From: Planctomycetota bacterium
GTDB taxonomy: Bacteria; Planctomycetota; Planctomycetia; Gemmatales; Gemmataceae
Length of the DNA stretch: 35,256 bases
Direction of reading: 5' to 3'
NCBI GenBank assembly: GCA_021807595.1
Contig: JAKBCS010000045.1
Span: forward strand, 1-35,256
Position numbers and translations under genes: made by a program. The stretch's first letter is position 1. Each line of letters opens with the position of its first letter. Of the stretch, positions 12,320 to 22,307 are shown piece after piece. The notes beneath the pieces were generated by a model. The model saw nothing but the letters and a program-made list of their open reading frames with translations. It did not search any database and was not told the origin of the DNA.

Positions 12320-14404
12320 ATGAAATTGCTACTCTTGTTCGTGCTGATTGCGACGGCTTTGCTGCTGTCGGCTGCGCCCGTCGTCCGCGGCGACGAAGGC
12401 ATGTGGTTGTTCAACAATCCGCCCCGCGATTATCTCAAAAAGAAGTACGACTTCGACGCCACGCCCGATTGGCTCGATCGCGTCCAGAAATCGTCGGTGC
12501 GCTTCAACAGCGGCGGCTCCGGATCGTTCGTGTCGCCGGACGGTTTGGTGATGACCAATCATCACGTCGGGGCCGACTGTCTGCAAAAGTTCGGCAGCAA
12601 AGAGCATAACTATCTGCGCGACGGCTTCCACGCCCGCACCCAGGCCGAGGAGCGCAAGTGCGACGACCTCGAACTGAACGTGCTGATGAGCATCGAAGAC
12701 GTGACCGCGCGCGTCAAAGGGGCGGTCAAGCCGGACATGAAACCGGAACAAGCCTTTGCCGCCCGCCGCGCCATCATGGCCGAGATCGAGAAGGAATCGA
12801 CCGACAAGACCGGCCTGCGCAGCGATGTCGTGACGCTGTATCAGGGCGGCGAATATCACCTTTACCGATTCAAAAAGTATACCGATGTTCGATTGGTGTT
12901 CGCTCCGGAGCAGCAGATCGCATTCTTCGGCGGCGATCCCGATAATTTCGAGTATCCGCGCTTCGATCTCGATGTGTGTTTCTTCCGCGTCTACGAAAAG
13001 AATAAGCCCGCCAAGATCGAACACTATCTGAAATGGAGCAAGGCCGGTGCGAAGGACGGCGAGTTGGTGTTCGTGTCCGGGCATCCGGGACGCACCAATC
13101 GGCTGGCCACACTGGCAGAATTGGACTATCTCCGCGATCTGGGCTATCCGTTTTTGTTGCAGCGCCTCAATCGCATGGAAGTGCTGCTCATGGCGTTCAG
13201 CGGTCGCAACGAAGAGAACGCCCGCCAAGCGCGAGAACTGTTGTTCGGCGTGCAGAATAGCCGTAAGGCGCGCGTCGGCGGCCTGGCGGCCTTGCTCGAT
13301 CCACGGCTGATGGCCCGCAAGAAGGAGCAAGAAAAAAAATATCGCGCCAAAGCCAAGCAAGACGATGCGCTCAAGGATGCCCGCACCGCTTGGGATCGCA
13401 TCGCCGCGGCCCAGAAGGTTCGCGCCGCCAACATCCACAAGTATACCCTGCTCGAAGGCGGGGCCGGTTTCCAGAGCGACCTGTTCGTCATCGCCCGCAC
13501 TCTGCTCCGCGCCGCCGACGAAAAGGGCAAACCGAACAGCAAACGTCTCCGCGAGTTCCGCGATTCCAACCTCGAATCGTTGGAGTTTCAACTCCTCTCC
13601 GAAGCGCCCATTTACGACAACTACGAGAAGGTGAAATTGGCCGAGGCCCTGACGTTCTTGGCCAACCAAATGGGCGGCGACGATCCATTGGTGAAGAAGA
13701 TACTCGCCGGCAAATCGCCTTCGGAACGCGCCTACGAACTCGTCGGCGGTTCCAAGGTGAAAGACGCCAAGGTGCGCAAGAAACTCTATAAGGGCGGCAG
13801 GGAAGCGCTCGAAGCCGCCAACGATCCGATGATCGAGCTGGCCCGCCTCGTCGATCCCGAATCGCGGAAAGTGCGCAAGACCATCGAAAGCGAAGTCGAA
13901 GAAGTACAGCGCCAAGCCTACGCCGAAATTGCCAAGGTCAAGTTCGCCCTGGAGGGAACCACCACCTATCCCGACGCTACCTTCACCCTGCGGCTGGCGT
14001 TCGGAAAGGTCAAGGGTTACGAAGAAGACGGCAAGCACGTCCCGTTCGAGACGACCTTCGCCGGCCTGTACGAGCGCTCGGCGGAACACCACAACCGCGA
14101 ACCGTTCGATCTGCCCAAGCGCTGGATCGCTAAAAAGGATAAACTCAATCTCAAAACGCCGTTGAACTTCATCTGCACGGCGGACATCATCGGCGGCAAC
14201 TCCGGCAGCCCGGTCATCAACCGTCAGGCCGAGGTCGTCGGTCTGATCTTCGACGGCAACATCCAATCGCTGGCTCTCGACTTTGCCTTCAGCGACGAAC
14301 AAGCCCGCGCCCTGTCCGTCCACTCGTCTGGCATCGTCGAAGCCCTCCGCAAAGTCTACGACGCCGACGAATTGGCCGACGAACTAACGGGCCGCAAACG
14401 ATGA
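12320..14404 (+). CDS. S46-family dipeptidyl-peptidase (DPP7/DPP11-like)
   Basis: The 694-residue product is close to the 700-720 residues usual for peptidase family S46, exported serine peptidases that release dipeptides from peptide N-termini. A signal peptide (about 1-24) precedes the mature start DEGMWLF. The chymotrypsin-type triad is visible: His in MTNHHVGADC (81-82), Asp in EYPRFDLDVCFFR, and Ser in IIGGNSGSPVIN. In the specificity position 18 residues after the Ser there is Gly (LIFDGN), as in DPP7, whereas DPP11 has Arg; this suggests preference for hydrophobic rather than acidic residues. The ATG at 12320 has GAGGA upstream, so the longer frame to 11990 is ignored. Confidence 0.93.
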   Translation: MKLLLLFVLIATALLLSAAPVVRGDEGMWLFNNPPRDYLKKKYDFDATPDWLDRVQKSSVRFNSGGSGSFVSPDGLVMTNHHVGADCLQKFGSKEHNYLRDGFHARTQAEERKCDDLELNVLMSIEDVTARVKGAVKPDMKPEQAFAARRAIMAEIEKESTDKTGLRSDVVTLYQGGEYHLYRFKKYTDVRLVFAPEQQIAFFGGDPDNFEYPRFDLDVCFFRVYEKNKPAKIEHYLKWSKAGAKDGELVFVSGHPGRTNRLATLAELDYLRDLGYPFLLQRLNRMEVLLMAFSGRNEENARQARELLFGVQNSRKARVGGLAALLDPRLMARKKEQEKKYRAKAKQDDALKDARTAWDRIAAAQKVRAANIHKYTLLEGGAGFQSDLFVIARTLLRAADEKGKPNSKRLREFRDSNLESLEFQLLSEAPIYDNYEKVKLAEALTFLANQMGGDDPLVKKILAGKSPSERAYELVGGSKVKDAKVRKKLYKGGREALEAANDPMIELARLVDPESRKVRKTIESEVEEVQRQAYAEIAKVKFALEGTTTYPDATFTLRLAFGKVKGYEEDGKHVPFETTFAGLYERSAEHHNREPFDLPKRWIAKKDKLNLKTPLNFICTADIIGGNSGSPVINRQAEVVGLIFDGNIQSLALDFAFSDEQARALSVHSSGIVEALRKVYDADELADELTGRKR

Positions 14405-14476
14405 CGGAAATCGGCCATCCGCAATCGGCGAGACGCGCCGAGATCGTCCTTAGCCGTACATCGCTCCTCTTGGATT

Positions 14477-14510
14477 CTCCCTTCTCCCCTGAGCAAAGGG
14501 GAGAGGGGAG
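14477..14510. repeat. Dispersed palindromic repeat, CTCTCCCC family, copy 2
   Basis: A 14-bp stem with one G-T pair (14477-14490 against 14497-14510) and a GAGCAA loop forms CTCCCTTCTCCCCT/AGGGGAGAGGGGAG. It lies about 70 bases after the S46 gene and may also act as its terminator. Confidence 0.65.
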
Positions 14511-14667
14511 TGGTGCTGTTCTCGAGCCGATACCTGCCCCACTCACAACAGCGATTGCATCGAGAGCAAGCAATGCGTTCGCTAGAGATTCTGTCTACTC
14601 GGTTAGTGTCTATTCATAATTTGTTTGTCGATAAGAAGTTAAGAAAAATCATTTCTCCGGGCAATTC

Positions 14668-14683
14668 TGGCACGCTCGTTGCT
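14668..14683 (+). promoter_or_regulatory. Sigma-54 (RpoN) promoter, -24/-12 type
   Basis: TGGCACGCTCGTTGCT matches the -24/-12 consensus TGGCACG-N4-TTGCW at every fixed position, with GG and GC placed correctly. The expected start is near 14694, giving a leader of about 350 bases before the gene at 15042. Upstream DNA is AT-rich, as often before such promoters. An activator site was not identified. Confidence 0.65.
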
Positions 14684-14834
14684 TAGATAGATAAATGTTG
14701 TTATCTTGCCGTGTCCCTGGAAACCCACTTGGGGAATACACGAGCGGATAACGATGTCTTCTTCGAGGTTGGTCAAAATACGCCGGTGGTAGAGCCGGCC
14801 CCCGCCTAGTGCGGCCTTCCTGCGAATTGCGCAC

Positions 14835-14884
14835 ATCTTGGTTAGCCGCGACGCACAGCGGAGCGCGGGACAACTAACCAAGAT
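14835..14884. repeat. Dispersed palindromic repeat, GGTTAGCC family, copy 1
   Basis: Perfect 11-bp arms ATCTTGGTTAG and CTAACCAAGAT enclose CCGCGACGCACAGCGGAGCGCGGGACAA in the leader of the gene at 15042. The inner GGTTAGCCGCGACGC..CAGCGGAGCG is repeated in reverse at 22280-22307 with three differences in 28 bases. Confidence 0.7.
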
Positions 14885-15041
14885 CGTTCTTTGGATGCAA
14901 TCCGCAAGAAAACCGCCGATTCCGCCCTCTCCCCATGCTGTCCCGATGGCTTCGGCCTGTTTGCCACACGCGCCCTCCGCGCCCCGATTGCGGAACATCG
15001 AGCGGCGCACCGCGAATAACAACGATAAAGGAGATCTTCCA

Positions 15042-15530
15042 ATGGGCTTAGCGAGCCGCTTCCTCAGTTTGTTCTCGATACTATCCGCCGTGTTGTTAAC
15101 GGTCGCCAGTCTGACGGCGGAGTGGGTGTTCGAGGCGTGCATGGTGACGGATGCGTCGGGCAGTCGCATCTCGGTGTTCGAGGCGCAGCGCAAGGGCGAA
15201 CGGCTGACGCGCGAAGTCCACGCCGCCCTCGACCGCGTTGAGACCAAGGGGAAAATTGCGGACATGGTGGTGAGCGGCGAAATGAGCTTGATCGAAGGGG
15301 CGGCGTGGTTCCGTTCGCTCTCCCGCGAATCCCACGCCTGGCACGCCCTGGTCTGTCCGCTCCCGGGACCGAAGGATGGCGAGGGGTGGTGCCGTTTGGT
15401 CGTCGATTGGATCGACACACGCCTGCGCTTCGATCGAACGGCGAGCCAGGCCGACGCGGTACGGCATTGCCTGGAGTCGGAACTGCAAGCGATTCTCGAC
15501 CGCGACGGCGGCATCGAATTGCCGGACTGA
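15042..15530 (+). CDS. Membrane-anchored conserved hypothetical protein
   Basis: The 162-residue product starts with one hydrophobic helix (about 5-30), so it is a membrane-anchored or exported protein. The remainder is mostly helical, with a GEMSLIEGAAWFRSL segment (about 88-102). That pattern, a short helix with LxEAAaxFR, recurs in a many-membered planctomycete hypothetical family, as far as I recall. The ATG at 15042 has AAAGGAG 8 bases upstream, and the frame further upstream carries the GGTTAGCC repeat rather than protein-like sequence. A sigma-54 promoter lies about 370 bases upstream. No catalytic motif is visible and function is unknown. Confidence 0.75.
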   Translation: MGLASRFLSLFSILSAVLLTVASLTAEWVFEACMVTDASGSRISVFEAQRKGERLTREVHAALDRVETKGKIADMVVSGEMSLIEGAAWFRSLSRESHAWHALVCPLPGPKDGEGWCRLVVDWIDTRLRFDRTASQADAVRHCLESELQAILDRDGGIELPD

Positions 15531-15549
15531 CATTTCGCGCCGTCGCACC

Positions 15550-15600
15550 GTCCGTAGGGTAAGCGAGGAATTTCGATCGACCCTCGCTTACGCTACGGAC
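15550..15600. terminator. Long inverted repeat between convergent genes, likely bidirectional terminator
   Basis: GTCCGTAGGGTAAGCGAGG (15550-15568) and CCTCGCTTACGCTACGGAC (15582-15600) pair over 19 bases with one mismatch. It sits between the ends of the genes at 15530 and 15612. It may be one more member of the mobile-looking palindromic repeats of this genome. Confidence 0.6.
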
Positions 15601-15611
15601 TCCGTCTTTCG

Positions 15612-17180
15612 CTAATTGTGTCGATAGTGCATGTCTTCGCAAAGGCGTTCGAGCGCTTCGCGGGCAAAATAGGCTACATCCACATCTTCGGCGTCGGCGA
15701 GGCGGTCGAGATCGGGCCAGAGCAGCGTCAGATTCTCGACGGCGACGAGTTGAATGGTGTCGTGAACGCGCTGCGGATCTTCGCTGGTCAGCGTTTGCCG
15801 AAACCATTGAAGCGCTTGTCGTTCGCCCAATCGCGCCAGCGCGGCGCGGGCGGCTTGGCGGACGTCGGGATTGGGATCGCGGCGAGCATCTTGCAGAGTC
15901 ATCAACACTTCGCCTCGGCTGAGCGGCTCCCACCAACCGAGACTGCCGACGGCGCTGAGACGGATCGACGGATCCCAATCGCGCGCCGCCAACAACAGAA
16001 ACGCCTCGGTCTGCGAGGACGGATGACCGCGCAGCGCGCGGAGGACGGCGCGATAGGGAATCTCTTGCGGAATCGACGGTCGGCGCGGCGGAGCGGCGCG
16101 ACGGCGGCTCTGCGCGCGGCGGACCATTGGCACGCGCTGCATCACCCACTCGCGCAGCAGTGGTGCGATGCGCGGATGCGCCGACCACGTCAGCGATTGC
16201 AACGCCAAGTCGGCGTGCGGATAGTGCGGCGTCGCCAACAGCGGCAGCACGGCTTCGCCCGCCTCGGCGCGAAGATCGATCAACGCCTGGAGTATGTCGC
16301 GCTGCTCTTCTAACGACCCGTCGGACAGGCGCTCGCCCAAGAGTGCTGGCGCTTCCTGCAAAAAGTCGGTCAGGGCGGGTTCGAGCGATGCCAGGCGCGA
16401 CAGTTGCCAGCTGAATGCCTCTTGTTCCGAGTTATCGGCTAGGACCGTCTCGGCATGGGGGGCGCGGCGGAGCAAACGCAAGGCTTCGACGTAGATGCGC
16501 ACCGCCAACGGATCGATGCACTCGGTGCGATTGTCCCACAGTGTTTCGATGAGTTCTCCGGCGCGGGCCTCGGCGACGACGAGGGGCGGCACGCCAAAGC
16601 GCAGCCCCTCCAGAGCGCGATGCAGCACGCGCAGAGCGGCGCGGCCGAGCGGCGCATCGAACTGGCGCAGATAGCCGGAAAAGTTGAGAAAGCAGATCGT
16701 CTCGGCGGCGAAAAACTGACCCAACGGCGGATCGCCGGCGCTCTCGGCACAGCGGAGCAAGTGCGGCAAACTCTGCGAACGATTGAGGCTGCGCAGACCG
16801 TTGGCCAGGTCGATCCAATACCACGCCTGTTCGATTTGATCGTCGGTCAAGCGCCGTTGGAGTTGGCGTTCGAGAATGCGTCCGGCGTCGTCGGTTCCCA
16901 GTTCGGCGAGGGCGCGAACCTGCACGACGTACTGCATCCCCGCCCGCAGGCTCGATTCGATGGCGGCCACTTCGCCGCGCTCCAACAACTCGCGGAAGCG
17001 CGCCTTGGTCGATTCGACCGCCGACTCGCTCAGTTGTCCGCCCTGAAACAGATCGATGTGTTGACGACTGATCGGCGACAACTCGTCGCGCAGCGTTTCC
17101 TCGCGCCGCCGCCGCAACCACAACAGGGCCGCCGCCAACAACAAAGGTATCAACAGAATCGAGATCGTCACGACCTGCAT
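15612..17180 (-). CDS. Membrane-anchored HEAT-repeat protein
   Basis: The 522-residue product has one N-terminal hydrophobic helix (about 3-21) followed by RRRREE, so the rest is probably cytoplasmic. It is built of helical hairpins; the C-terminal part has clear HEAT units such as WDPSIRLSAVGSLGWW and PNPDVRQAARAALARLGE. Such proteins are scaffolds for protein contacts. The ATG at 17180 is chosen because GGAAGGTGAT directly precedes it; the frame stays open to 17201 only. Convergent with the gene at 15042. Its partner is unknown. The end is set by a stop just before the 15550-15600 inverted repeat. Confidence 0.82.
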   Translation of the reverse strand: MQVVTISILLIPLLLAAALLWLRRRREETLRDELSPISRQHIDLFQGGQLSESAVESTKARFRELLERGEVAAIESSLRAGMQYVVQVRALAELGTDDAGRILERQLQRRLTDDQIEQAWYWIDLANGLRSLNRSQSLPHLLRCAESAGDPPLGQFFAAETICFLNFSGYLRQFDAPLGRAALRVLHRALEGLRFGVPPLVVAEARAGELIETLWDNRTECIDPLAVRIYVEALRLLRRAPHAETVLADNSEQEAFSWQLSRLASLEPALTDFLQEAPALLGERLSDGSLEEQRDILQALIDLRAEAGEAVLPLLATPHYPHADLALQSLTWSAHPRIAPLLREWVMQRVPMVRRAQSRRRAAPPRRPSIPQEIPYRAVLRALRGHPSSQTEAFLLLAARDWDPSIRLSAVGSLGWWEPLSRGEVLMTLQDARRDPNPDVRQAARAALARLGERQALQWFRQTLTSEDPQRVHDTIQLVAVENLTLLWPDLDRLADAEDVDVAYFAREALERLCEDMHYRHN

Positions 17181-22243: not shown

Positions 22244-22307
22244 GGTTAGCCGCCCCGCTCGGTGCGCCGCGAGTTTGCCCACGCTCCGCTGCGCGTCGTG
22301 GCTAACC
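22244..22307. repeat. Dispersed palindromic repeat, GGTTAGCC family, copy 2
   Basis: GGTTAGCC and GGCTAACC are the arms; the right half (22280-22307) reads as the reverse complement of the copy at 14840-14867 with 25 of 28 bases identical. It fills most of the gap between the BamD-like gene and lptE, inside the operon. Confidence 0.7.

Follow-up and report, generated by a model that had tools for sequence, protein, structure and literature searches.

A predicted sigma-54 promoter and a conserved candidate enhancer precede the gene of an undescribed membrane-anchored protein family in the Gemmataceae

The stretch of DNA analysed here, referred to as the window, is 35,256 nt long and comprises positions 1-35,256 of the forward strand of contig JAKBCS010000045.1 (assembly GCA_021807595.1) from a Planctomycetota bacterium of the Gemmataceae. 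The genome to which it belongs (G000) amounts to 5.67 Mb in 282 contigs, and the other three genomes of the genus are designated G001, G002 and G003. On the plus strand, the sequence TGGCACG-CTCG-TTGCT at positions 14668-14683 matched the sigma-54 pattern TGGCACG-N4-TTGCW without a mismatch. The −24 box (TGGCACG) occupies 14668-14674 and the −12 box (TTGCT) 14679-14683, with four nucleotides in between and with the GG and GC standing at the −24/−12 spacing. From the −12 GC at 14681-14682, the geometry of sigma-54 promoters would place the start of transcription 12 nt further on, at 14694 on the same strand, which leaves a leader of about 348 nt (14694-15041) before the ATG at 15042. A Shine-Dalgarno sequence, AAAGGAGA, is located on the plus strand at 15027-15034.

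The orphan gene that follows (15042-15530, plus strand) encodes a protein of 162 aa, which is predicted to be all-helical and anchored in the membrane (or exported). The protein has an N-terminal hydrophobic stretch, and AlphaFold placed a helix at 3-32, partly at low confidence; the predictions for six family sequences were all-helical with a mean pLDDT of 78.3. Neither Pfam nor NCBIfam gave a match to the 162-aa protein, a profile of the family retrieved nothing convincing from the PDB sequences (the best hit, E 0.013, was a designed protein), and a Foldseek search of the predicted fold against PDB gave no match at E ≤ 0.001. The libraries consulted (Pfam, NCBIfam and PDB) hold no description of the family, and no mention of it was found in the titles and abstract openings of papers on planctomycete sigma-54, NtrC and nitrogen regulation. 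The protein is presumed to belong to the cell envelope. An earlier note on this DNA had described a near-perfect sigma-54 promoter followed by a leader of about 350 bases and a membrane-anchored orphan gene, and this description was borne out: the match is exact and the only one of its kind within the window, the leader measures 348 nt from the expected start to the ATG, and the protein combines its hydrophobic N-terminus with a lack of relatives in the libraries.

When up to two mismatches were allowed, five sigma-54 motif matches were found in the window against 3.53 expected from shuffled sequences, so that only the exact match is notable. This near-shuffle level is what would speak for a chance motif, the orphan gene being read from an ordinary promoter. 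In the whole G000 genome the exact pattern occurred 11 times (7+4) versus twice for the reversed pattern, and the reversed-pattern rate corresponds to about 0.01 matches per 35-kb window, which agrees with the earlier claim that a random match is improbable. Nor was any sigma-70-like site found at 14400-15620, from which an ordinary promoter might have been proposed.

A protein search gave matches in 6 of 59 genomes, with its own genome counted, and each of the other genomes of the genus had a full-length orthologue (G003, 90%; G001, 44%; G002, 38%). TGGCACG-N4-TTGC was found upstream of the gene in all four orthologues, at −374 relative to the start codon in the window, −265 in G003, −122 in G001 and −277 in G002. 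A peptidase S46 gene lies upstream of the orphan gene in G000 and G003, and the loci of G001 and G002 yielded none. The promoter thus travels with the orphan gene. Alignment of the four orthologues displayed three islands of conservation: an upstream element at 14548-14572, the −24/−12 boxes, and the Shine-Dalgarno sequence with the start codon. Invariant columns made up 22 of 32 at the upstream element (14549-14580), 27 of 84 in the spacer between element and promoter and 13 of 18 at the promoter (14666-14683). They numbered 17 of 341 across the leader, and around the Shine-Dalgarno sequence and start (15025-15044) 13 of 20. The exact match kept in four of four orthologues together with a conserved upstream element, and the excess over all controls in the family as a whole given below, make a chance motif extremely improbable. 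The assignment of 14668-14683 as a genuine sigma-54 promoter is considered secure at the level of sequence, and sigma-54 control of the orphan gene is well supported.

The first part of the leader (approximately 14707-14815) was recognisable in G003, and in G002 by alignment only; in G001 the leader is almost entirely absent. A DNA search with the leader retrieved G000 and G003 only, and Rfam gave nothing in 14400-15060 at E ≤ 1. The whole leader folded no more stably than shuffled sequences (z −0.63), and among the stretches folded, 14830-14890 alone was clearly better than shuffles (z −3.85). Here lies a palindromic repeat (14835-14884), the half-site of which, GTTAGCCGCGACGC, was present in 150 copies in G000, 4 in G001, 5 in G002 and 159 in G003, with 0 for the control. 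The palindrome is absent from the leader of G003, the nearest orthologue. An operator or regulatory hairpin was ruled out by the 150 half-sites in the genome and by this absence, and for the same reasons the palindrome is placed outside the regulatory unit. It is one copy of a dispersed repeat which has come to lie in the leader; the palindrome which the earlier note had pointed out is thus present, but it does not form part of the switch. A second copy with two mismatches is found in the window at 22281-22306.

With a seven-member profile, the family was detected at 95 places in 55 of the 95 genomes of the window's taxonomic family, covering 22 of 39 genera. Of 297 genomes of the class, 59 were matched by a 56-member profile. 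Every one of these belongs to the same taxonomic family; no match was obtained in 18 further genomes of that family among those listed or in the 220 remaining genomes of the class. Most of the members listed carried an N-terminal hydrophobic segment; several (e.g. in G009, G011, G025 and G081) were without it, given start codons that were picked automatically by a script for all 95 members. The conserved helical part reads K ... G-R-x-T-L-x-E-A ... R-N-V-I in the family consensus. The homologues L026, L027, L028, L029, L030, L031 and L043, also with script-chosen starts, showed no hydrophobic segment and contained a CRTVIGWV-like block. A second, diverged paralogue was situated less than 1 kb behind the orphan gene on the same strand in at least about 20 genomes (e.g. 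L152:4519-5600). A Pfam scan of 96 neighbours from 24 loci gave no recurrent partner gene, and the commonest family was protein kinase with 4 of 96 (107 families in all, of which the first 25 were viewed).

Sigma-54-like sites were detected ahead of a considerable part of the family. A matrix made from the sigma-54 consensus reached a score of at least 14 in the 450 nt ahead of 24 of the 95 members, against 0 for the reversed matrix, 0 on the opposite strand and 2 downstream. The pattern TGGC[AC][CT]N5TTGC[AT] was present within 620 nt of 18 of 95 members (controls 0/0/0; shuffles mean 0.14, max 2), and [CT]GGC[ACT][CT]N5TTGC[AT] at 33 of 95 (controls 0/0/1; shuffles mean 0.38, max 3). By dropping the last base and searching within 760 nt, the number increased to 41 of 95, versus 1 for the reversed pattern, 2 for the complement and 3 on the opposite strand, with a mean of 1.02 and a maximum of 6 in shuffles; these looser promoter patterns, as well as the enhancer pattern below, were written after sites had been looked at. 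The remaining 54 members had no such promoter within 760 nt upstream, and they include another type of paralogue present in the genus of the window (G000:C236, G003:C172, G001:C114 and G002:C156).

The upstream element of the window, a candidate enhancer or activator site on the plus strand at 14548-14572, has the form ACA-N6-GC-N11-GCA and was singled out by its conservation and by the same geometry before amtB, described below. Within it, TGC at 14556-14558 and GCA at 14570-14572 are separated by 11 nucleotides, and the GC is located at −111 from the −24 box. The consensus of NtrC sites is TGCACC-N5-GGTGCA, i.e. the TGC-N11-GCA spacing. This geometry is present at 14556-14572, where CAAGCA, the half-site on the right, resembles the NtrC half-site GGTGCA only poorly. 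The longer sequence TGCATCN5CAAGCAAT had a single mismatch-free match in each of the four genomes of the genus, always 93-98 nt before the orphan promoter, and there were 11 further matches when one mismatch was allowed.

A related element was recovered beyond the genus. Aligned upstream regions of 21 promoters, mostly from Gemmata-like members, revealed GCA-N5/6-GC-N11-GCA, of which G001 carries the full form and the window the GC-N11-GCA part. GC-N11-GCA was positioned at −118 to −95 in 25 of the 41 promoters, mostly at −116 to −110, and its position was sharply peaked, with 25 in the bin −121 to −98 and 0-6 in each other 24-nt bin. Promoter and element occurred jointly in 25 of the 95 members, versus 0/0/0 in three controls and a mean of 0.02 (max 1) in shuffles. 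These 25 members span eight genera, including 13 in g17, 4 in the window's genus and 3 in g32, and the counts of 41 and 25 are both weighted towards the one genus g17. The promoter was accompanied by an element elsewhere, or by none, in G010, G101, G011, G022, G009, G078, G088 and at L019 (−157). The element conserved at a fixed distance supports control of the orphan promoter by an activator. Looking for the motif ahead of homologues, as had been suggested, gave TGGCACG-N4-TTGC in the genus orthologues (4/4) and a sigma-54-like site at 41 of 95 family members, and the suggestion that a sigma-54 signal would tie the gene to an activator-controlled response gains support from the upstream element.

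The machinery for such a response is encoded in the genome, as the earlier note had asked of it. One PF04552 match (E 6.9e-59) identified rpoN, and PF00158, the sigma-54 activator domain, gave 21 matches, of which 14 had an E value of 3e-59 or lower. In 15 loci searched with a motif script, 12 ORFs for enhancer-binding proteins (EBPs) were detected that have a GAFTGA-type loop. In a scan that covered 10 of these 12, TIGR01818 (ntrC) was the best model for four: C251 (478.3 bits), C282 (473.5), C216 (425.7) and C26 (387.9). All four scores are below the cut-off of 558.6, and those of C251 and C282 were clearly the highest, making these two the best candidates for the activator. A receiver-histidine-kinase gene was identified by Pfam just upstream of the C282 EBP on the same strand; for C251, the ORF in that position gave no Pfam match. 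When a set of loci was scanned for the GAFTGA motif, one EBP was found near a family member, in G009. The gene concerned (L147:5200-9339) encodes a response regulator of the NtrC type approximately 1.2 kb from the family member, with an unidentified gene ahead of it on its strand.

At none of the genome's 10 other exact sigma-54 sites does GC-N11-GCA stand at the distance seen before the orphan gene. Behind each of these sites, the ORF on that strand that looked most plausible was picked by eye, from a genome rich in G+C and in spurious frames. Seven of the 10 matched Pfam, including Hsp20, DUF1571, a DUF1559 pseudopilin, cytochrome c, pyruvate:ferredoxin oxidoreductase and GT20 (trehalose-phosphate synthase type); a transglycosylase-associated match was weak (20.3 bits versus a cut-off of 25.3). 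Two of the 10 gave no Pfam match, and the tenth site (L019) precedes a distant paralogue of the window gene.

A pattern combining element and promoter gave 42 matches in the four genomes of the genus versus 18 when reversed. In 19 other genomes there were 106 matches versus 144 reversed, and single matches there mean little because the count is not above that of the reversed control. Weight was therefore given only to matches shared between species. The matches examined comprised 20 that were judged by eye to be conserved between genomes or to lie in AT-rich surroundings, and the 30 loci put out by the search itself, which were viewed by script. Behind the arrangement, the gene for the ammonium transporter AmtB (PF00909, E ≤ 2e-117) was found in all four genomes of the genus, followed directly in each by a P-II gene (PF00543, E ≤ 4.2e-28), and the element before amtB was located at −111, −111, −116 and −115. 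Also in four of four genomes (L216, L219, L231 and L233), the arrangement preceded a gene for a small secreted protein with the blocks FRIT...(V)LLDGRP...NESKEI..IHFR, one tested representative of which had no Pfam match. A DUF1559 pseudopilin was behind it in two of the four genomes, and a chaperonin-10 ORF lies further downstream at the L231 site. Hydrolases likewise stand behind the arrangement; these, the pseudopilins and the small secreted protein are not obviously nitrogen genes, which counts against a nitrogen reading.

The predicted promoter, the conserved position of the putative enhancer, the distribution of the family and the architecture in common with amtB can all be read from the DNA itself. 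From the common architecture it may fairly be inferred that one activator serves both the orphan family and the amtB-P-II operon in the genus. Nitrogen status would be the likeliest signal, because in these genomes the amtB-P-II operon has the same element in front of it at the same spacing, and the activator itself is likely NtrC-like. We consider it probable that 14548-14683 is an enhancer-dependent sigma-54 promoter under the control of an NtrC-like activator and that it directs synthesis of a nitrogen-responsive membrane-anchored protein. Sigma-54 RNA polymerase would sit at the −24/−12 boxes (14668-14683) as a closed complex, and an activator of the NtrC type would bind TGC-N11-GCA about 100 bp upstream of the boxes, loop over the intervening DNA and open the complex by ATP hydrolysis. 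The transcript would then begin near 14694, cross the 348-nt leader and give the 162-aa membrane-anchored helical protein, which is probably made when nitrogen is short.

The same promoter might instead be worked by another EBP of the Fis type, e.g. a ZraR-like or stress-responsive one, which would recognise TGC-N11-GCA and control amtB together with the orphan family and further envelope genes in response to stress or surface growth. Such an activator is consistent with the pseudopilins, the small secreted protein and the chaperonin-10 ORF among the targets of the arrangement, with Hsp20, GT20 and others behind the exact sites of the genome, and with NtrC-model scores that fall below the cut-off and are spread over four EBPs. 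Chaperone, UspA and secretion genes are moreover among the predicted sigma-54 targets in Planctomycetia, as given in the portion of PMC12316311 drawn on here. The presence of amtB and P-II behind the arrangement in every genome of the genus, and the 10 exact sites without the element at that distance, speak against it, and we regard this alternative as rather unlikely. The NtrC-like reading is retained below.

The proposed control may be compared with known systems. In enteric bacteria, the glnK-amtB promoters are under NtrC and sigma-54. These share with the window −24/−12 boxes and an upstream TGC-N11-GCA at about −100, and the window genus's own amtB-P-II operon has the same arrangement. 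The present case differs in that the target is an undescribed membrane protein, that the activators are candidates only, that the window has an extra GCA/ACA half-site further upstream and that the half-sites are degenerate. The phage-shock (psp) operon of Escherichia coli is controlled by PspF and sigma-54. As there, sigma-54 and an enhancer would drive a small inner-membrane protein; unlike there, the orphan protein matched no psp family in Pfam or NCBIfam, and the NtrC model outscored PspF for the two candidate activators C251 and C282. Within the planctomycetes, an earlier study of Pirellula sp. strain 1 reportedly predicted a sigma-54 regulon. A predicted regulon for Planctomycetia, the same phylum, has chaperone, UspA, secretion and signalling genes among its targets; the orphan family and its enhancer are not mentioned in the portion of that paper drawn on here (PMC12316311). 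The present observations suggest that control of the NtrC type in planctomycetes reaches envelope proteins, and the orphan family, which more than half of the genomes sampled from one planctomycete family possess, gains a testable condition, nitrogen limitation, together with a defined switch.

In the Gemmata-like members, the leader contains an element of 89 nt with two helices, detected in 15 members (example locus L145:5801-5890, minus strand). In these 15 sequences, which were selected for showing the conserved core, pairing extends to 83.6% of cells, compared with 70.6 in shuffles. Both sides have changed in 11 of 14 pairs, and covariation scored 0.466 versus 0.235 for shuffles and at most 0.126 when slid. 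When 95 genomes were searched with strict filters, a model of this RNA matched 17 times, in 16 of them, and every match stands ahead of a family gene; 15 of the matched sequences had themselves gone into building the model, and the new ones are those in G069 and G063. The match in G069 precedes its family gene, and that in G063 precedes a frameshifted family gene which was missed by the first protein search and found by the wider profile. At the latter locus (L156, G063:C1:1344309-1345709), the family gene lies in two frames behind an intact leader RNA. Rfam at gathering scores gave no match in the leader RNA loci of L145, L150 and L148, and a conserved leader RNA with no Rfam match in the three loci tested is hereby brought to light. 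The leader of the window is not claimed as the Gemmata-type RNA (R1), the model scoring 8.2 bits there and no higher than 2.1 in G002. In G003 it scored 8.6 bits, at a position upstream of the promoter and not in the leader.

This RNA could be taken to mean that the promoter mainly makes a regulatory leader, a riboregulator perhaps read by CsrA, with the protein secondary. The covarying pairs, the regular position before family genes and the presence of CsrA in 10 of 10 genomes tested would fit such a role. The nearly missing leader of G001, a window leader no stabler than shuffles, the low model score in the window and the lack of anything convincing in the G002 and G003 leaders make it quite improbable. 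CsrA itself at the leader RNA is only a guess: reading of the RNA loop through GGA stays speculative, as GGA was by eye missing from some loops and from the leader hairpin of G002. With the sigma-54/NtrC-like switch as the preferred reading, we tentatively suggest, as a possibility short of an even chance, that the family confined to the Gemmataceae might form a dedicated, hitherto undescribed arm of the nitrogen-starvation response, with a leader-RNA gate added before the tandem pair in Gemmata-like members. The csrA gene was located approximately 4-8 kb from the family gene in G064, G065, G066 and G078, and in the genome of the window a csrA gene is found beside an EBP gene (G000:C193:7672-8885).
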